64,000 nucleotides of DNA from Chitinophagaceae bacterium (lineage in GTDB: Bacteria > Bacteroidota > Bacteroidia > Chitinophagales > Chitinophagaceae), in assembly GCA_016786845.1 (NCBI GenBank), contig JAEUVB010000012.1, positions 186,001 to 250,000 of the forward strand. The letters run 5' to 3'. The position numbers were made by a program, and so were the translations under genes. Shown in pieces: positions 48,118 to 61,998 of this stretch (position 1 is the stretch's first letter; each line of letters opens with the position of its first letter). A model generated the notes under the pieces. The model ran no database searches. It was not told the origin of the DNA and saw only the letters and a program-made list of their open reading frames with translations.

Positions 48118-50382
48118 TTAATGGCTGACAGCAACCTTAGTCACTGTTTTGCCGCACTGTACAAAATAGAGTCCGGGACTCCAATTCAAGGTAGAGATCA
48201 TTTGTTGGTCTTTGATCCATTGTGTGACCATCTGCTGACCATACATATTCGTCACCTTGAGTAATTTCTTTCCGTTGCACTGAACCGTCAGTTGATCATG
48301 AGCCGGATTAGGAAAGACGCTTACCTGATCTAACGCTAATACGGAAGGAATACTTAAAGGATCATTGTTATTCTGATAGCCGAATGTGGTATTCATCATG
48401 GTGAAACTACCCGTACCATTGGGATAGCGGCCGTAGGACACATCGGCGATTTGAGCTGTAAAAGAAATACTGTCGAGTATGGTGCCGGATGCATTTGACA
48501 AATAGAGATGGCCGGTGTCTTTGCTGAGACTGAAATTGGTGTGTAAGATTTGTTGGAGGGAATCATCATCGGCCCAAATGGTGGTATAGGCATTCGGGTT
48601 GATAGTGGAACCTGAAGGGAATATCCATTTCTGCAGATTATTTTGATCATCAGAAAGGTAGAGATTACTCAGGTTGAGGAGTTGATTTGAATTGTTGTAA
48701 AGTTCGATCCAATCTTCCTCATCATTGTATTCATCCTTTGCATTATTGGCATTGTCGGCCAGCAATTCATTGATCACAATTTGTCCGGCTGAAGGTTCCT
48801 GAGTCGTCGCGTAAAGCGTATAAAAAACATGTTCTGCCTGTTGAGGTGAGAGCATGACGGCATCTGCATTTTCGGCATAAAAATAATATTGCAATTGACC
48901 GTAGCTCATATTGAGGGAGGCGCCATAAACCCCGTCGCCGGAAGCGCCATCGTTGTGGGCGCCATCGTCGTACATAGGCAGGAAGGCGAATTTGATGGTT
49001 TTATCGAAACGATAGCCGAGATAGACCGTGGTGGCATTGGAGACAGCCGCTGTAATATTCACATTGGTATTGATGGCCGGCGCAGCACCTGTGTTGATAT
49101 TATTGATGCTTGGAGGCACTAAGGCAAATTCAGGTGTCGATTGCAAATAGGTCGCGCGTGCATCCATGAGGGTATTGATGCCGGGCACCGTATAACTACC
49201 CACGGTGGTGTTGGTATTCATTCCATTTTGAAACTGGGTATAGGTAAAGAACTTATTCGGATCTGATTGCACGGCTGTATCTACGATGGATTGAAGTTGG
49301 GTTGCCCATCCGTTATAGATACCACTGGCGAACATATCGGAGATGATCGTCCGCATGTGGGCGATATAGGTTTTGCGAAAGCGGTCGTTGGCAAATACAT
49401 CGTTGATCAAAGGCCAATACGTATCGGTAGAATGATTCGTAGGCGGGAATTGTTGCATGGAGGTCACGGTTTGATTGCCCATAGAAGTACCGCCTGCACC
49501 GGAGAAAGGGAATGCACCAAAGGCCATATTGAGATCCCAAATGATGGGATTGTAATGGGCGGTATTGTCTTTGTACACATAATAGTTTTGGCAAAACACC
49601 CCGCTATAGCTATCGAGATTCACCAATACATTGTTGAAGGCCAGCATCCAGGCCACGCGATCCATGTCGAGGTTATTGCCCAGTGAGGCAGTATAATTCG
49701 TAACCGTATCGCACAACTTGACAAAGTCGTTCCAACCGGTTTTTGATTTCATCTCATAAAGGTTCATATAACTATTGCTGTCGGCATTGATGTATTTGAG
49801 GTTACTCTTATTGGCAGGACTTGGATTGGAGATCGGATTACATTTAAAGAAAGGATTGTAATTGGAATAGAAATGATCGCCGCAGAATTTCTTATCAATA
49901 TTTTCGGCACTGGAATAGAGTCCGATCAGGTTTCCATTGATATAGACCTGGGCGAAATTAGATTCGGGGCAGTGCATATAATTTTTCAGAATTCGATAGC
50001 CCAAGACCTCCCGGATCACAGAAGGATCACCATATCCGTTGGAGAGTTTGATATCTTTATAACCCTGATGAGATTGATCTTTAAATTCATCAAAAGCAAT
50101 ATGCAGCGGGTTTTTCATTTGGGTAGAGTCGTAGGAACTGTTGCCTTTATACTTCACCCCTACACTATCGTAAAGTACGCCGTTCACCTTTACCCAATCG
50201 GCCATCAGATAGCCTTCCGATCCGTGCTTGGCGGTATCCATTTGATAATCCCAATTGGCCTGGCTGAATTGGATTTCAATTTTCTGTATAGTGTTTAGGT
50301 CATACAAAGCTTGCGAATGAGCGGACATGCCGAGAAACAAAAAGCATCCTGTGAGGAGGATGCTATTGAAATATTTTTTCAT
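48118..50382 (-). CDS. T9SS-sorted CotH-family protein with lamin-tail domain
   Basis: The 754-aa protein has a signal peptide (ending SAHSQ), a CotH kinase-like domain over about residues 30-380 with GVKYKGNSSYDS, a YINGNLIGLYSSAENID segment and NPIIWDLNMAFG, then a CBM/Ig-like segment, a lamin-tail domain (VINELLADNANNA...WIELYNNS, residues about 545-660) and a T9SS sorting domain. CotH kinases phosphorylate secreted proteins in spores. The usual WDLD reads WDLN here. Start 50382 (MKKYF) follows the upstream gene's stop. Confidence 0.85.
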   Translation of the reverse strand: MKKYFNSILLTGCFLFLGMSAHSQALYDLNTIQKIEIQFSQANWDYQMDTAKHGSEGYLMADWVKVNGVLYDSVGVKYKGNSSYDSTQMKNPLHIAFDEFKDQSHQGYKDIKLSNGYGDPSVIREVLGYRILKNYMHCPESNFAQVYINGNLIGLYSSAENIDKKFCGDHFYSNYNPFFKCNPISNPSPANKSNLKYINADSNSYMNLYEMKSKTGWNDFVKLCDTVTNYTASLGNNLDMDRVAWMLAFNNVLVNLDSYSGVFCQNYYVYKDNTAHYNPIIWDLNMAFGAFPFSGAGGTSMGNQTVTSMQQFPPTNHSTDTYWPLINDVFANDRFRKTYIAHMRTIISDMFASGIYNGWATQLQSIVDTAVQSDPNKFFTYTQFQNGMNTNTTVGSYTVPGINTLMDARATYLQSTPEFALVPPSINNINTGAAPAINTNVNITAAVSNATTVYLGYRFDKTIKFAFLPMYDDGAHNDGASGDGVYGASLNMSYGQLQYYFYAENADAVMLSPQQAEHVFYTLYATTQEPSAGQIVINELLADNANNAKDEYNDEEDWIELYNNSNQLLNLSNLYLSDDQNNLQKWIFPSGSTINPNAYTTIWADDDSLQQILHTNFSLSKDTGHLYLSNASGTILDSISFTAQIADVSYGRYPNGTGSFTMMNTTFGYQNNNDPLSIPSVLALDQVSVFPNPAHDQLTVQCNGKKLLKVTNMYGQQMVTQWIKDQQMISTLNWSPGLYFVQCGKTVTKVAVSH

Positions 50383-50390
50383 GATGAACA

Positions 50391-51395
50391 TTATTGAAGA
50401 ATGATTTTCTGAATGTATTTATCGCCATTCGATAATAAAACCTCGAGGGTATACATGCCGTGAGGATATTGCTGAACGGGTATATTCAAAGACGAAGAGA
50501 GAGATTGATTTTGTTGTAAAATGACACGGCCCGAAAGATCATTTAACCGAATACCGGAGATGGGTTGTTGAGTTTGGATGTGAAGGATGTCGCTTGATGG
50601 ATTAGGGAATACTTTAAGATTCAATGGAGCATCAGTATTCGAAACTGTAGTCGCGAAGCAAGCCTGACAATCGGAAAAACAAACATTGGGCAATACGGTA
50701 TCCTTAGACATGGTAATGGCCCTGTTTGAATTGGTGGCACAGCTTCCGGGTACAATTTCCGCATCTGTCGTCGTATTGCCATTATAGAATTTATACTCAT
50801 AGTTCATCAGGTCGACATAGCACTGGGTTTCATAAACTTTACTGCCACCGTTGGCGAAAGAATACATCCGTTGTGTGGTAGGGTTCCATGATTGAAAACT
50901 CGCTGCGAGATGAACGCCGTTGGGTGATACAGTTTGATTGACCATATCCACCAAAGGGCGAATGAGATATTTATCTTTAGGTGCATTTCCGGAAAACATC
51001 ATTGCGCCGATATCGGTTGTATCATTCGCCAAAGAATCAATATAGATCCAGCGATTGTCTACGAAGTTATAACCCACCTGTGCTTCCAGCGGAACGATTT
51101 CTACTTCATAACATTGATCGCCGTTGACAAATTTGTATTCATATTTTTGAAAAGCAGGTATATCCACTACGACGCTCCAGATATTGGTATCGGCAGGTTC
51201 CTTGGCCATGAGTATGGTATTGCAAGCCCAATCGCCGCCACTATATCCGGCAGCTGTTTGAAAATCGCCCATCACATGAATGCCCGTGGCCACATTCACC
51301 ACCTGACCGGTGAGGTTCACTGAGAATTTTACTTTTTTCGCTTGAGCCCATTGCACTGAAGCAAGTAATAAGAATAAGCCGGCAATATATCTCAT
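50391..51395 (-). CDS. T9SS-sorted protein with two CBM/AMPK-like beta-sandwich repeats
   Basis: The 334-aa protein has a signal peptide and two related sandwich modules of about 110 residues: GIHVMGDFQTAAGYSGGDW...EYKFVNGDQCYE and GVHLAASFQSWNPTTQRM...YEYKFYNGNTTTDAE, followed by a T9SS sorting domain. The modules resemble glycogen/starch-binding CBM20- or CBM48-type folds, which bind glycans. It lies between the CotH and sulfotransferase-like genes on the same strand, 8 and 27 bp away. Confidence 0.75.
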   Translation of the reverse strand: MRYIAGLFLLLASVQWAQAKKVKFSVNLTGQVVNVATGIHVMGDFQTAAGYSGGDWACNTILMAKEPADTNIWSVVVDIPAFQKYEYKFVNGDQCYEVEIVPLEAQVGYNFVDNRWIYIDSLANDTTDIGAMMFSGNAPKDKYLIRPLVDMVNQTVSPNGVHLAASFQSWNPTTQRMYSFANGGSKVYETQCYVDLMNYEYKFYNGNTTTDAEIVPGSCATNSNRAITMSKDTVLPNVCFSDCQACFATTVSNTDAPLNLKVFPNPSSDILHIQTQQPISGIRLNDLSGRVILQQNQSLSSSLNIPVQQYPHGMYTLEVLLSNGDKYIQKIILQ

Positions 51396-51422
51396 GAGGT
51401 AAGCTTTAAAGGATGTGAATGA

Positions 51423-53108
51423 TTATTTTTTCAAAGATACTTTTTTAGTCGCCATTCCTTTGTCTGAATTGATGACCAAGGTATACATGCCTGAAGACAA
51501 TTCAGATAAGTTTAAGTTGAGGTTGTTTTTCACATTCATCAGGGTACGGCCATAGATATCGATGACGAGCACATTGAAGTTGTTTCCTAAGAGACCATCA
51601 TCTTTGATATTGACTGTTCCGTTAGTCGGATTAGGGTAAACCGACAAGGCATCAGACAGATCCAAATCAGCCACTGCATCTGCATTTTGTGTGTGCTTGT
51701 AGCCAGGTGAATATCTGTAGACACAACCATTGGCATCGGTAATGCGAACTACATAGATACCGGATTGTGTGGCGTTGTATGTTTGACTATTGGCACCACT
51801 GATGAGGACACCATTGAGATACCACTGATAGGTTGTGGCCGGGGTTGATGTCAATACATTGACGGCTCCGGTAATGGCCGGAATGGCCGGTGGCGTATTA
51901 AAGATATAACAGGAATCATATTTTCTGGCTTGCGAACATCCCATACCACCGGTAAAGGTCTTGGTCCACAATTGGGTACCCGCACTATTGATTTCATATA
52001 CTTTACTGGAAGTAGCGATGCAGATCAGCTGATTTCCGTTGGGCAATTGTTGGGTACTTCCCATATTGCTGCTATAGCCATTGCAAGCATGGCGGGCGGT
52101 ATAGGTGGCAGGAGCATAAGCTTGCCCCAATGTAATATTGTAATTATAACCATTGATGGGCGTAATGATTTCATCGGCGGCAGATTGAGAATTGGAAACT
52201 CCCCTATTGTTGAAACCGGCAAGACGTCCGGCATTTGGAACACCTTCCGGAATCCAGTGTGCGTCATGAGTTACATTGAGTATAGCTGTACCTGAAGCGC
52301 CATAGGCTGCAGGATTTCCCCAACGATATAAGATATCGCCACCTTTACCGGAATTACCACCGGCATGTGTAGCCGCTTCGGCCGTCGTGGTGCTATGGTC
52401 GATGATATACCATTCGTCCATATTGTGTGAACTGAAAGCAATTTGATCGAGAATGGGGTTATAGTCCACACCATTCATATGTTGCCAATCTTTTGCTTGT
52501 TGATAATTAATATTGATGAGTTCGGGATGGTCTACAATACTGGTTTGATAATTGGCTTTGGACGCATCAACATTCTGCACCAAATGATCCCAGGTATGCC
52601 ATTCCCAAACGACGGTACCTGTGGTTGGACCTGTAGGTTGAATTTCCACTATTTTGTCGGGCCACATTTCGATGGCATTACTACCACCTGCAGCAGTGAC
52701 TTCAGCGGCTGTCTTACGTTCGTAAGCGATCACCAGTACATTCCCGTTGGGCATAGGACAAATATCATGATGGGTGCAATAGTTGGTGGTTGAATAATCG
52801 TAGGTCCAGGTTAGGTTACCTGCATAATCGTGTTTGGTGATGCGACCACAAATTGGTCCGCCGGTAAATGAGTTACCCCCTTTAGCCACTGCTCTTACAA
52901 TGGTACCACCCGGTTCCATATGGGTGGAATACCCTGTCGCATTGCCTGAGGGGAAGGTCCAGGTATGATAGGTGGTGAGGTTGGTATCCATCAAATAAGC
53001 ACTGAGGCTATTTTGGAGACTATACAAGGTGTAGCCGTTCCATTGTTGAGCGGACACATTCATTGTAATAAAAAGGGTGGCTACCAGGAGGGAAATTCTG
53101 TTCCGCAT
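51423..53108 (-). CDS. T9SS-sorted aryl-sulfotransferase-like beta-propeller protein
   Basis: The 561-aa protein has a signal peptide, a six-bladed ASST-type propeller (about 30-400) with THHDICPMPNGNVLVIAYE, WQHMNGVDYNPILDQIAFSSHNMDEWYIID (landmark HMNGVDYN and FSSHNMDE) and VTHDAHWIP histidine motifs, an Ig-like module (TYQWYLNG) and a T9SS sorting domain. Bacterial ASST moves sulfate from aryl sulfates to phenols; many Bacteroidota homologues are of unknown activity. Start 53108 is used, 6 nt after a weaker ATG. Confidence 0.8.
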   Translation of the reverse strand: MRNRISLLVATLFITMNVSAQQWNGYTLYSLQNSLSAYLMDTNLTTYHTWTFPSGNATGYSTHMEPGGTIVRAVAKGGNSFTGGPICGRITKHDYAGNLTWTYDYSTTNYCTHHDICPMPNGNVLVIAYERKTAAEVTAAGGSNAIEMWPDKIVEIQPTGPTTGTVVWEWHTWDHLVQNVDASKANYQTSIVDHPELININYQQAKDWQHMNGVDYNPILDQIAFSSHNMDEWYIIDHSTTTAEAATHAGGNSGKGGDILYRWGNPAAYGASGTAILNVTHDAHWIPEGVPNAGRLAGFNNRGVSNSQSAADEIITPINGYNYNITLGQAYAPATYTARHACNGYSSNMGSTQQLPNGNQLICIATSSKVYEINSAGTQLWTKTFTGGMGCSQARKYDSCYIFNTPPAIPAITGAVNVLTSTPATTYQWYLNGVLISGANSQTYNATQSGIYVVRITDANGCVYRYSPGYKHTQNADAVADLDLSDALSVYPNPTNGTVNIKDDGLLGNNFNVLVIDIYGRTLMNVKNNLNLNLSELSSGMYTLVINSDKGMATKKVSLKK

Positions 53109-53206
53109 AGACATGAAATTGTTTAGGTGATTAGATGCTAACTTAGGTTACTAAATTGTGACCTTACCGATAAATAAGACAAAAAGAATGATTCTGAAGG
53201 CTAATG

Positions 53207-53908
53207 CTACTTCACACGGCGCATTAATTCCTCTTCATAATTCTTACCTGTAGGTAATTCAATGGTGGTTTCGCCTTTCTTGAGGTGGACCATACGATTT
53301 CGCAGAAAAGCAATTTTCCCTACCGGCACGATATACGACTTATGAATTCTCACAAATTCTGTTTCCGGCAGACGCTCTAAAATATTCTTCATTCTTTGAC
53401 GGGCGACCAATGGCTTTTGATTGTCGAAATGAATTTTAATATAATCGCTCAAGCCTTCAATGTATAAGATATCATCAATCATAACTTTGATGAGGCTGTA
53501 ATCGGCACGTATGAAGAAATAATTCTGTTTGCCCAAATCCGACTTGGTAAGGAAGTTGAAGTATTCCTGGGCCCGCACCGCAGCCTTTTCAAATCGTTTG
53601 AAATCAAAAGGTTTGAGGAGGTAGTCTACGGCATTCAGGTTGAATCCCTCTACGGCATATTCGCCAAAGGCTGTGGTAAAAATGACCATGATATCCTTTC
53701 CGAGATTTTTATAAAAATCGATTCCGTTCACGGAAGGCATCTGTATATCCAGAAACATCAGATCGACCGGATACTTCTCAATATATTTCAAAGCATCACT
53801 CGGTTTGGAAAAAGTTTTTTCCAATTCAATATAATCCAACTTGGCGCAAAAGGATTCTATGACCTTGAGGGCCGGTGGTTCATCATCGATGGCTATGGCT
53901 CTAATCAT
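53207..53908 (-). CDS. LytTR-family response regulator
   Basis: The 233-aa protein has a receiver domain with the phospho-acceptor Asp in LMFLDIQMPSVNG and a C-terminal LytTR DNA-binding domain containing KVMIDDILYIEGLSDYI. It overlaps the histidine kinase gene by 8 bp and lies 92 bp upstream of the T9SS trio on the same strand. It probably controls surface genes, the neighbours being the nearest candidates. Regulatory logic is inferred. Confidence 0.93.
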   Translation of the reverse strand: MIRAIAIDDEPPALKVIESFCAKLDYIELEKTFSKPSDALKYIEKYPVDLMFLDIQMPSVNGIDFYKNLGKDIMVIFTTAFGEYAVEGFNLNAVDYLLKPFDFKRFEKAAVRAQEYFNFLTKSDLGKQNYFFIRADYSLIKVMIDDILYIEGLSDYIKIHFDNQKPLVARQRMKNILERLPETEFVRIHKSYIVPVGKIAFLRNRMVHLKKGETTIELPTGKNYEEELMRRVK

Positions 53909-54929
53909 TTAATAAGAGTTTTAAACGAACTATAAAGGTATTCTCTGAATCTGTAATTTTCAACTCATATCTTGCGGCATACAAATATTCGAGTTGTTTT
54001 TTCACATTGGCAAGGCCCTGACCCGTTTTCAAATCTTCCACAGACTTATGGTGCACTTTCAGGTTACTGACCAATAAGGTCAGCCAATCGCCATTGGTGG
54101 TAATATTGATATCGATTTCGGAGCGTACTTCCGGATTCACGCCATGCTTAAAGGCATTTTCGATAAAGGTAATCAGAATCATGGGTGCGATCTTCTTTTC
54201 CTCGTCGATACCGGCTGAAACGTGCAGATAGACATCCGCGGTATCGCCAAAACGTGCCTTTTGCAGATCAATAAAATTCTGAATATAGGTAATCTCTTTT
54301 TCGAGAGTCACAAAATCCTCCCGGGCATCGCTCAATACATAGCGCATCATACCGGAGAGTTTCACCACGGCTTCTGAAGTATAATCGGATTGCTGTAAGG
54401 CCAGTGAATGTATGGTATTGAGTGAATTGAATAAGAAATGCGGATTGATCTGTGCTTTTAAAAAAGATAACTCCGAAGAAATTTTTTCTCTTTGCGATTG
54501 ACGCCAGCGAATATTCACCCGCATAGCGAGTGAGGCAAACAGAATGACGAGAAAAAGAAAGATATTACTCTTGTATTTCAACAAAAATGGAGGATCTGTT
54601 CTCGGTTGTTCGACCAATACATTTACAGCGGCCTGAACACTGGTATCCTTGATGAGCAATACCGGCAAACTCATGATGAGTACAATACATATGGCCGATA
54701 CCAATACATAGGCCGGGTAATTCTTTTTGAAATAATATTCCGGAATCAAATAGTAATAATGAACGTAAAAGAAAATGATCAATAAAGCATAGGTGATTAC
54801 ATCTCGAAGGGCAAAAGTATTTCTTACATCATCGAGGCCGAATATTCGTCCGGGAGAAAGCATCACGGGAATACAGATAAATACCAGACAGCCCAGTACA
54901 TGCAGAAATATCGTGACGCTTCTATTCAT
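53901..54929 (-). CDS. LytS-type sensor histidine kinase
   Basis: The 342-aa protein has four membrane helices in its N-terminal half, then a coiled-coil linker and the His_kinase (PF06580) block NPHFLFNSLNTIHSLAL with the phospho-accepting His, and a HATPase_c domain with ENAFKHGVNPE. It senses an unknown membrane or envelope signal. It is the first gene of a kinase-regulator pair and divergent from purK. Confidence 0.92.
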   Translation of the reverse strand: MNRSVTIFLHVLGCLVFICIPVMLSPGRIFGLDDVRNTFALRDVITYALLIIFFYVHYYYLIPEYYFKKNYPAYVLVSAICIVLIMSLPVLLIKDTSVQAAVNVLVEQPRTDPPFLLKYKSNIFLFLVILFASLAMRVNIRWRQSQREKISSELSFLKAQINPHFLFNSLNTIHSLALQQSDYTSEAVVKLSGMMRYVLSDAREDFVTLEKEITYIQNFIDLQKARFGDTADVYLHVSAGIDEEKKIAPMILITFIENAFKHGVNPEVRSEIDINITTNGDWLTLLVSNLKVHHKSVEDLKTGQGLANVKKQLEYLYAARYELKITDSENTFIVRLKLLLND

Positions 54930-58126: not shown

Positions 58127-58726
58127 TTATTCTTCCGCTCCTCTACCCCCCAACATCCTCTTCACCCTTTTCGTAAACCGCTCATCAGTTGGATACTTTC
58201 TGTAAGAAGTCATATTGTTGAAGATGAGAGCGACCACCAAGAGTATCATACATCCACTTAAAACAGGATACAACACGTACGTATATCCCAGGGCCTTGAT
58301 CTTTTCAGAACCCATGACGGCAATTAATGCTGTGGCCCCACCGGGAGGATGTAAGGTTTTGGTCATTTGCATGCACACAATAGAAAGGGCCACTGCCAAG
58401 GGCGCGGTGAGCCAGATGACATCGGGCAATACTTTGAAGACCGTTACCCCGATGATAGCCGAGATCACATGTCCGCCGATTAAGTTGCGGGGTTGTGCCA
58501 GTGGACTCTGTATAGCCCCGTAGATCAATACACTGGTAGCACCAAAGGAGCCGATGAGAAAAATATTTTCGGCTTTTGTGAGAAACTGATCCTGAATAAA
58601 GGCAATGAGACCGATGCCCATAAAGGCACCGATAAAGGACCACAAATGCTCTCGAAAATCAATCATGGTTTCTTTATAGATGATGTAGCGGGAAGCGTTG
58701 ATGCCTTTACTGATTCTCTTTCTCAT
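58127..58726 (-). CDS. HPP-family membrane protein
   Basis: The 199-aa protein has four or five hydrophobic helices and the signature LHPPGGATALIAVMG. HPP proteins in plants and cyanobacteria move nitrite; bacterial substrates are mostly unknown. Start 58726; a shorter Met at 58666 is possible. Confidence 0.85.
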   Translation of the reverse strand: MRKRISKGINASRYIIYKETMIDFREHLWSFIGAFMGIGLIAFIQDQFLTKAENIFLIGSFGATSVLIYGAIQSPLAQPRNLIGGHVISAIIGVTVFKVLPDVIWLTAPLAVALSIVCMQMTKTLHPPGGATALIAVMGSEKIKALGYTYVLYPVLSGCMILLVVALIFNNMTSYRKYPTDERFTKRVKRMLGGRGAEE

Positions 58727-58794: not shown

Positions 58795-58802
58795 TAACTT
58801 TG
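58795..58802 (+). promoter_or_regulatory. -7 promoter box (TAACTTTG) of the MbnP-like gene
   Basis: Exact TAnnTTTG match ending 7 nt before the ATG at 58810, supporting that start and a short leader for the gene pair. Confidence 0.6.
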
Positions 58803-58809
58803 AACCTTC

Positions 58810-59523
58810 ATGGCCTTTCATTCCATCATATCCGCACATCGCCTTCGATTCAAGATGCTATTATGCTTATTACTCGGATATGGATTACAATCCGGCGCCA
58901 TGATCCTTCAATTTCATCCGCGTTTCCATCAGCAAACTGTTTTGCCCAACGATAGTACACGGTATATTCTTCAAGGCGACACCCTGATGATTCAAAGTTT
59001 GAAGTGGTATATCTCTTCCGTTTGTTTTCTGAAACAAGGCCATGTCGTTTGGCAGGAAGACAACAGTTATCATTTACTGGATGCGACAAAACCTACTTCC
59101 TTGATCTTAGCATTAAACACACCCGATGCATTAAGCTTCGATCAGGTTCAGTTTGTGTTGGGTATTGACAGCAGCACTCAATCGGGCGGTGTCATGGGCG
59201 TCGATCTCGATCCTGTTCAGGGTATGTATTGGACCTGGCAAAGCGGATACATTCATTTTAAAATGGAAGGTATCAGTAATCGCTCGAGTGAAAGAGACCA
59301 TAGTTTTCAATATCATGTCGGGGGTTATCAGTATCCGGAGAATACGGTGCAAACCATTAACTTACCGGTGATGAATGCCAAACACTTACAACTCGCGATG
59401 GACATCGATGAGCTCCTGCCTTCGATGGACATGAAAGCTCATCCGCATATCATGTCGCCGGGTGTTGAAGCTGTGCGACTGTCTGAAAAAATCAAATCCA
59501 TCTTCAAGGTTCTGACGCCATGA
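58810..59523 (+). CDS. MbnP-like copper-binding-type protein
   Basis: The 237-aa protein has an N-terminal hydrophobic export signal and the MbnP signature around residues 133-158: VDLDPVQGMYWTWQSGYIHFKMEG (landmarks GMYWTW and SGYIHFKMEG). MbnP proteins bind copper through a tryptophan turned into kynurenine by a partner di-heme enzyme. It overlaps such a gene by 4 bp (ATGA). No methanobactin biosynthesis genes are visible. Confidence 0.82.
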   Translation: MAFHSIISAHRLRFKMLLCLLLGYGLQSGAMILQFHPRFHQQTVLPNDSTRYILQGDTLMIQSLKWYISSVCFLKQGHVVWQEDNSYHLLDATKPTSLILALNTPDALSFDQVQFVLGIDSSTQSGGVMGVDLDPVQGMYWTWQSGYIHFKMEGISNRSSERDHSFQYHVGGYQYPENTVQTINLPVMNAKHLQLAMDIDELLPSMDMKAHPHIMSPGVEAVRLSEKIKSIFKVLTP

Positions 59524-60545
59524 GAAAACAGATCGCTTTTCTTTTCCTGTTGTCTTTTCTACTTCTCTCCTATCAAGCGGATCTGTTTCAAACGCCTGCA
59601 GGTTTTCCCAAACCGGTTTACGACTTCACGAAAAACCCTTTAGATTCCGCCAAGATCGAATTAGGTCGTGCCTTGTTTTATGACCCCATCCTTTCGCACA
59701 ACCTGAAGATATCTTGTGCGAGTTGCCATTCGCCCTATAATGCATTTGCTCATGTAGACCACGCCTTGAGTCATGGCATCGATGATCGTATTGGCAAACG
59801 CAATGCCCCTGCGCTGTTCAACCTGGCGTGGCATAATCGATTCATGTGGGACGGGGCCATACACCATCTCGATGTGCAGGCGCTCGCGCCTATGAGTCAT
59901 CCCGATGAAATGGGTGATACCTTAGCACACGTGATCGCCAAGTTGCAAGCAACAACCCTCTACCCTTCGCTTTACGAGAAGGCCTTTGGCGATCGGAATA
60001 TAACCGGCGAACATACCCTAAAAGCCATCGCACAGTTCTTGTTGACCCTGGTGAGTGCCAATTCGAAATACGACAGTGTATTGCGACATCAAGCTACTTT
60101 TACGGATCAGGAAAACAATGGCTACAAGCTTTTTCAGCAACACTGTTCGAGTTGTCATACCGAGCCTTTGTTTACGAACGGCGAATTTGAATCGAACGGA
60201 CTCCCGCCCGATACCTTCCTGCAAGACAAAGGCCGTATGGCCATCACGCATCGCAAGGAAGATTCACTTCGGTTTAAAGTGCCGAGTCTGCGCAATATAG
60301 AATTCACCTTCCCTTATATGCATGACGGACGATTTAAACAACTTCGGGAAGTGCTGCAACATTATAGTGGCGGCATACAGACAGATGTGCACAGGGATAA
60401 ACTACAGCGATCCATTCCGCTCAAGGACAATGAAAAAGTAGATATCATTGCCTTTTTGCTCACTTTATCAGACAGAAGTTTTATGTTTAATCCCAAATTC
60501 GCCTATCCAAAAATATTATTTCAAAAAGATCCGCAGGAAAAGTAA
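59520..60545 (+). CDS. Di-heme cytochrome c peroxidase, MbnH/MauG-like
   Basis: The 341-aa protein has a signal peptide and two heme sites, CASCHSP (about residue 63) and CSSCHTEP (about 211), with the CCP/MauG pattern FDIxxNPLDSAKIELGRALFYDP near the N-terminus (landmark ELGRALFYDP). In the MbnP-MbnH pairs, the enzyme oxidises a Trp of MbnP. The 4-bp overlap with the MbnP-like gene makes that role likely. It acts in the periplasm. Confidence 0.85.
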   Translation: MRKQIAFLFLLSFLLLSYQADLFQTPAGFPKPVYDFTKNPLDSAKIELGRALFYDPILSHNLKISCASCHSPYNAFAHVDHALSHGIDDRIGKRNAPALFNLAWHNRFMWDGAIHHLDVQALAPMSHPDEMGDTLAHVIAKLQATTLYPSLYEKAFGDRNITGEHTLKAIAQFLLTLVSANSKYDSVLRHQATFTDQENNGYKLFQQHCSSCHTEPLFTNGEFESNGLPPDTFLQDKGRMAITHRKEDSLRFKVPSLRNIEFTFPYMHDGRFKQLREVLQHYSGGIQTDVHRDKLQRSIPLKDNEKVDIIAFLLTLSDRSFMFNPKFAYPKILFQKDPQEK

Positions 60546-60587
60546 ACGCCCGGCATCTAAGAAAGTCAATACCTAAATTTATTTTAC

Positions 60588-61949
60588 ATGAGCAAATACA
60601 TCCTCATCACCCTATTGGCCTTTGTTTCCTTAAAGGGTTCAGCACAAGTCAATCCTGTAATTGCTGCCTGGCTGCAAAACACCACCGGCATCATGGGACG
60701 TCATTATGTGAATGGCAATTCTACCCCGATCAACGACAATGTATTGGCCAATGTGCAGACCGTTCAGTATTCTGCGAATTCGGTTTATATCTCCACCAAT
60801 GGAATTCCTTCCTATATCACGGGACCCTTTTTAGATGGCAATCCATCTTTGGCCACGAGTCAGAATGCCATTTTTAAATTCACTTTAAACCCTACTCAAA
60901 ATACCGGCACGCCTACCAATACCACCGGCGGCAATATCGGTTTATTTGTAAACGGGGTGGCTTTGTTTGATTATCGTGACGGGGTTTCCTGGAAAAATTC
61001 AACCAATGCACTGGCAGGCGGACCTATGGGCGGCATGGGCGACAATGTTTGGAATCGCGATGCCGTGGTCGCTGAAAAAGGCGGCTTCGATTGTTCGAAA
61101 GGACATCCTGCCATGGGCAATTATCATCATCATCAAAATCCGAGTGCGTTCAAACTGGATCTGAATGTGATCTCGACCATTTGTAATTTATACGATGCAG
61201 ATGGTCTGTATGTAATTGACAGCAATGTCCATTCTCCACTCATTGGTTTTGCGTACGACGGTTTTCCGATCTATGGCGCTTATGCGTATAAAAACACCGA
61301 CGGAACCGGAGGCATCGTGCGGATGAAATCGAGCTATCAATTGCGCAATATCACTACCAGAACGCAATATGCCAATGGCACCACTGTTACCCCCGGCCCG
61401 GCCGTGAGCACAACTTACCCGTTAGGGTTATTTCGTGAGGACTATGAATACATTCCCACTTCGGCGGCCACACCCGATTATTTAGACGAACACAATGGTC
61501 GTTTCTGCAAGACGCCGGAATACCCGAATGGAATCTATTGCTATTTCGCGACTGTGGATGCCAATTGGAATTCGGCCTATCCCTATGTGGTAGGACCTAC
61601 CTTTTACGGCGTTAAAAACACCGTAAAGGTGACCTCGATTACTGAACCGGTGACCGTTTATACCACCACACCGAATGCCGTTTCGAATACCACTGCTCAG
61701 GGAATTGAAGTCGATATTTATCCTAATCCTGCCAGCGATTTAATTGCGATTCAGGTGAGATCTGATTTCCGTAAGACCTATACCATTACCTTATTCGACA
61801 TCAGCGGCAGACAAATCTCCGGCACACAGATCTACCCCGGTGCAACGATTGCCTATTTTGACGCAAGAACATTGTATAGTGGAGAATATTTGATTAAAAT
61901 AGACGACGGCGCAAACCATGTCAGTAAAAAAATCATTGTAGCGAAATAA
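60588..61949 (+). CDS. T9SS-sorted YHYH-domain protein
   Basis: The 453-aa protein has a signal peptide (ending KGSAQ), a YHYH domain over about residues 100-330 containing GNYHHHQNPSAFKLD and PLIGFAYDGFPIYGAYAYK, and a T9SS sorting domain (YPNPASDLIAIQ...). YHYH proteins are secreted and uncharacterised, with many His residues that could bind metal. It lies 42 bp after the MbnH-like gene, probably in the same transcript. Confidence 0.83.
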   Translation: MSKYILITLLAFVSLKGSAQVNPVIAAWLQNTTGIMGRHYVNGNSTPINDNVLANVQTVQYSANSVYISTNGIPSYITGPFLDGNPSLATSQNAIFKFTLNPTQNTGTPTNTTGGNIGLFVNGVALFDYRDGVSWKNSTNALAGGPMGGMGDNVWNRDAVVAEKGGFDCSKGHPAMGNYHHHQNPSAFKLDLNVISTICNLYDADGLYVIDSNVHSPLIGFAYDGFPIYGAYAYKNTDGTGGIVRMKSSYQLRNITTRTQYANGTTVTPGPAVSTTYPLGLFREDYEYIPTSAATPDYLDEHNGRFCKTPEYPNGIYCYFATVDANWNSAYPYVVGPTFYGVKNTVKVTSITEPVTVYTTTPNAVSNTTAQGIEVDIYPNPASDLIAIQVRSDFRKTYTITLFDISGRQISGTQIYPGATIAYFDARTLYSGEYLIKIDDGANHVSKKIIVAK

Positions 61950-61966
61950 GTTGATTTATACTTTTG

Positions 61967-61998
61967 AAAAAGAGGCATGTTGTCACATGCCTCTTTTT
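61967..61998. terminator. Intrinsic terminator after the YHYH gene
   Basis: A perfect 14-bp stem, AAAAAGAGGCATGT with its complement, around a TGTC loop and ending in a T5 run. Together with the box at 58795 it delimits a three-gene unit. Confidence 0.92.

Follow-up and report, generated by a model that had tools for sequence, protein, structure and literature searches.

A YHYH protein with a T9SS sorting tail beside an MbnP/MbnH-like pair: a candidate copper-handling operon of Bacteroidota

The YHYH domain occurs in bacteria, phages, and diatoms, with no tested function in the literature searched, and the locus described here raises the question of what a secreted protein of this kind has to do with an MbnP-like copper protein and its di-heme partner enzyme. 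The three genes lie in a 3.64-Mb Bacteroidota genome, within the window, i.e., the whole stretch of 64,000 nucleotides of contig JAEUVB010000012.1 that was analysed. The features of the trio are as follows:

58795..58802, + strand: possible Bacteroidota -7 box TAACTTTG, an exact match, 7 bp 5' of the annotated MbnP ATG
58810..59523, + strand: MbnP-like copper protein, 237 aa; PF20243, 132 bits
59520..60545, + strand: MauG/MbnH-like di-heme enzyme, 341 aa; PF03150, 184 bits
60588..61949, + strand: YHYH protein with a T9SS type A sorting tail, 453 aa; PF14240, PF18962
61967..61998, + strand: intrinsic terminator, 14-bp perfect stem with a 4-nt loop

The MbnP and MbnH reading frames overlap through a shared ATGA and the YHYH gene begins 42 bp after the MbnH stop codon, an arrangement given in the preliminary description and with which both the coordinates and the Pfam matches agree. 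The terminator placed there at the end of the trio also stands, its perfect stem folding at -19.5 kcal/mol with z = -6.1 against shuffled sequences; a consensus terminator scan does not list this hairpin, probably because the T-run sits within the stem. The same description had taken the -7 box as the 5' border of the trio; the box is present and adds no evidence, since the window contains 58 copies of the motif TAnnTTTG, at chance level (60 expected). Divergent from MbnP lies an HPP-family (TM_HPP) membrane gene (58127-58726, - strand), where relatives have an ECF/CnrX-like regulator. Further upstream in the window (48118-53114, - strand), three secreted proteins in succession, each with a T9SS-like tail and judged by eye to be CotH-like, a 334-aa protein, and arylsulfotransferase-like, adjoin a LytTR-type two-component pair at 53207-54929.

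The assignment of the first two genes holds at the level of the superfamily. The Pfam scores of all three proteins lie well above their cut-offs, which for MbnP with PF20243 is 27 bits; at the level of the NCBIfam equivalogs, MbnP reaches 26.9 bits against the TIGR04052 cut-off of 140 and the MbnH-like enzyme 215.5 bits against the TIGR04039 cut-off of 362.85, so that the two are superfamily members and not certified MbnP and MbnH. In MbnP, the residues M139, W141, and W143 (MxWxW) together with H169 are invariant in 47 relatives, and MxWxW and HxG are kept in 96 of 96 MbnP relatives. The AF2 model has a pLDDT of 89.9, and neither sequence nor profile comparison gave a direct match to a solved structure. 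The 2021 PNAS paper on MbnP is said to report that the first Trp of WxW in the Methylosinus protein is converted into kynurenine, and that the Cu(I) site comprises a His and a Met; by these roles, we take M139 and H169 to be possible copper ligands. The genome encodes a second MbnP (G000:C6:264430-264978; locus L089: 6926-7663), whose motif NMIWTW fits MxWxW and which has neither MbnH nor YHYH adjoining; it may depend on an MbnH-like enzyme elsewhere.

The MbnH-like enzyme displays two CxxCH motifs, the Trp of FMWDG, and Y282 at the distal heme-ligand position, and the MbnH relatives that were scored likewise carry two CxxCH motifs and a Tyr where bacterial peroxidases carry Met. The best PDB match of its profile is 6e1c, annotated as 'Di-heme enzyme', and the alignment of the distal ligand shows Tyr in 6e1c and Met in the bCcP structure 1iqc.

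Compared with the MbnP-MbnH of Methylosinus trichosporium OB3b and with isolated pairs of other bacteria (TIGR04052/TIGR04039, GenProp0940), the two genes are alike in (i) the adjacency of the pair, (ii) the WxW with an upstream Met and the conserved His, and (iii) the two hemes, the Tyr ligand, and the closest PDB match of the enzyme. They differ in falling below both equivalog cut-offs, in that no methanobactin genes, MbnT, MbnI, or MbnR were seen beside the trio, and in being joined to YHYH and, in relatives, also to ECF/CnrX-like genes. The absence of MbnB and MbnC noted in the preliminary description extends to the whole genome, where neither gave a match, weakly so for MbnC, as no control genome matched either; the trio does not appear to belong to a methanobactin operon. 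That description had named the location outside a methanobactin locus in its heading, which is unremarkable, because the MbnP-MbnH pair is conserved far beyond methanobactin producers, a fact known from 2013 at the latest (PMC3621798). No account of the YHYH operon turned up in the literature searched: searches for YHYH with copper, for the YHYH protein or domain, and for PF14240 returned neither a YHYH protein with the pair nor an ECF-sensor-MbnP-MbnH-YHYH operon, most subscription papers lying outside their scope, and those for CnrX with Bacteroidetes found nothing relevant.

The YHYH protein, encoded by the only YHYH gene of the source genome, scores 195.3 bits with PF14240 and 47.5 bits with PF18962 (Por_Secre_tail), both over the cut-off, which identifies it as T9SS cargo. 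Its invariant columns comprise E163, D168, H173, Y179, H180, H182, D224, and D300, kept in nearly all short YHYH types too, and H215, specific to the long type. W155 was considered as a Trp that MbnH might modify in pair-linked YHYH proteins only, and was rejected, as it is invariant in all long YHYH proteins, linked or not. Judged from the alignment, the invariant His/Asp set is compatible with a metal site and does not name the metal; it agrees with the prediction, made for the YHYH domain in phages, of a Zn-dependent hydrolase (PMC7824862). The jumbo-phage proteins share the domain and the conserved His and Asp (PMC7824862), whereas they are tail-associated, fused to other domains, and not T9SS cargo, with no MbnPH reported. 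The AF2 model of the Bacteroidota protein is of fair quality overall (pLDDT 79, pTM 0.82) and weak at 162-201, around the motif, and the domain has no direct match among solved structures by sequence or profile. At the position of the YxY of the long type, the short YHYH proteins (~250 aa; L091-L100) carry YHYH a second time, and no MbnP-MbnH pair occurs at their loci.

The proposal in the preliminary description would fall if YHYH were not co-conserved with the pair, and it withstands this comparison. In an independent collection, a scan with YHYH as the sole query yielded 80 loci, mostly from Bacteroidota MAGs, many of them freshwater by title, in which MbnH lies within 5 kb of YHYH in 62 and MbnP in 57; where the flanks are complete, both are present in 38 of 43 loci. 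Taking one locus per family, MbnH is linked in 23/35 and MbnP in 22/35, compared with about 0.2 expected by chance under a rough model of two MbnP per genome, and the trio is found in many families and in other classes of the phylum too. Among 149 genomes of the family to which the source genome belongs, MbnP occurs in 22 of 22 with a full-length YHYH and in 86 of 127 others (p = 0.0006). The gene order is nearly always MbnP-MbnH-YHYH, with YHYH-MbnP-MbnH as a second order; the MbnP/MbnH overlap is most often 4 bp and YHYH typically follows 20-80 bp on. In the MbnH tree, the label of YHYH linkage requires 3 changes compared with 22.5 in shuffles, and the YHYH-linked enzymes group in their own clades. 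The converse association is weak: among the best 30 MbnP loci of the family, 23 of 25 MbnP-MbnH pairs are without YHYH, which argues that YHYH is not needed for the basic function of the pair, and long YHYH genes stand alone in 9 of 35 family representatives.

The larger neighbourhood of the 80 YHYH loci points to metals. The most frequent neighbour, directly 5' of MbnP in 30-37 loci, is a 150-aa TM-anchored protein that resembles CnrX/Spy in architecture, has H and HF...C as conserved residues, and matches Metal_resist (PF13801) below the cut-off, with an E-value of 0.0014. An ECF sigma factor is present in 25-30 loci, and a small TM protein, a putative anti-sigma factor, frequently separates it from the 150-aa sensor. 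A multicopper oxidase with a T9SS tail occurs in 12 loci, and a redoxin and a T9SS sulfatase in eight each; copper ATPases, efflux pumps, TonB receptors, and importers are not among the recurring neighbours. A genome of the same genus has ECF, anti-sigma, CnrX-like, MbnP, MbnH, YHYH, and sulfatase genes in one row. CnrYXH is the Ni/Co-sensing ECF system of Cupriavidus, and the unit of the relatives resembles it in that a single operon encodes an ECF factor along with a small TM protein and a TM-anchored sensor of the periplasm; it differs in the weak PF13801 match and in the MbnPH-YHYH genes downstream. The window locus has neither the ECF nor the sensor gene, so that an ECF/CnrX-regulated operon was not found there, the locus having lost the regulator or never had one. 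A CnrX-like module on contig C19 of the source genome was considered as well; it is only 25% identical to the operon's sensor and likely a different paralogue. At two loci (L113, L204), YHYH is clustered differently, with a sulfatase, a redoxin, and one or two T9SS multicopper oxidases but no MbnP-MbnH, possibly a second copper-enzyme island.

The maintenance of the trio across many Bacteroidota families, often behind a metal-sensor regulator, ties YHYH to copper handling. The preliminary description had suggested a copper acquisition or delivery module: the linkage and the recurring copper/metal neighbours sustain the copper part, and the sequence is compatible with both acquisition and delivery. 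The reading that we put first, tentatively and at somewhat less than an even chance, is that of a Bacteroidota copper-handling operon in which MbnH would produce kynurenine in MbnP, and MbnP would supply copper to YHYH and the multicopper oxidase ahead of their export by T9SS. The periplasmic MbnH would oxidise W141, the first Trp of WxW, and the modified MbnP would bind Cu(I), probably through M139 and H169. T9SS cargo folds in the periplasm before export; YHYH, as a putative metal-site protein exported to the surface, and the multicopper oxidase would hence need to be loaded with metal in the periplasm. That MbnP may provide this copper is suggested by the tight pairing and by the same T9SS tail on the multicopper oxidase that sometimes joins the unit. 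In many relatives, the ECF factor, the putative anti-sigma factor, and the CnrX/Spy-like sensor should make the unit metal-responsive.

The main rival reverses the flow, the surface YHYH capturing copper, or freeing it from ligands, and passing it to the kynurenine-bearing MbnP, as is thought for CorA/MopE with CorB/SACCP. In these methanotroph systems, a kynurenine copper protein likewise lies beside a di-heme MauG-like enzyme, and both CorA and MopE are copper proteins of the cell surface that have been linked to copper uptake (PMC3912023); their sequences are not markedly similar to MbnP (PMC3621798), and the literature consulted on them mentions neither YHYH nor an ECF module. The T9SS tail and the invariant His residues of YHYH suit such a capture, but MbnP of the trio has no surface tail, TonB receptors and importers do not recur beside the unit, and a multicopper oxidase and a redoxin as neighbours speak more for metallation or oxidation, so that acquisition appears rather unlikely. 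Defence against copper or metal stress, with the sensor-ECF module inducing MbnPH as a periplasmic copper buffer and the multicopper oxidase and YHYH as surface detoxifiers, would account for the sensor, sigma factor, and oxidase near the trio in relatives; we consider it quite improbable, as efflux pumps and copper ATPases do not recur and most loci lack the oxidase. Least probable of all is a surface Zn-dependent hydrolase sharing with the pair only regulation, under extracytoplasmic stress, and not copper, a reading that draws on the published domain prediction (PMC7824862), the sulfatase neighbours at some loci, and the solo YHYH genes, but fits poorly with a close and stable linkage to MbnH over tens of families and in two gene orders.

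A bolder form of the copper-supply reading, which we regard as doubtful, would make YHYH either a second MbnH substrate or a T9SS-exported copper protein of a new class, its active site built by a dedicated periplasmic kynurenine-type copper chaperone. An ECF/CnrX-like metal switch would control this arrangement, which would be widespread among the Bacteroidota of fresh water. With the trio, the YHYH domain gains a concrete, testable partner system, and a specific candidate client can be named for the MbnP-MbnH pair outside methanotrophs; if copper indeed passes from MbnP to YHYH, the trio would show how the surface-exported metalloenzymes of Bacteroidota obtain their copper.
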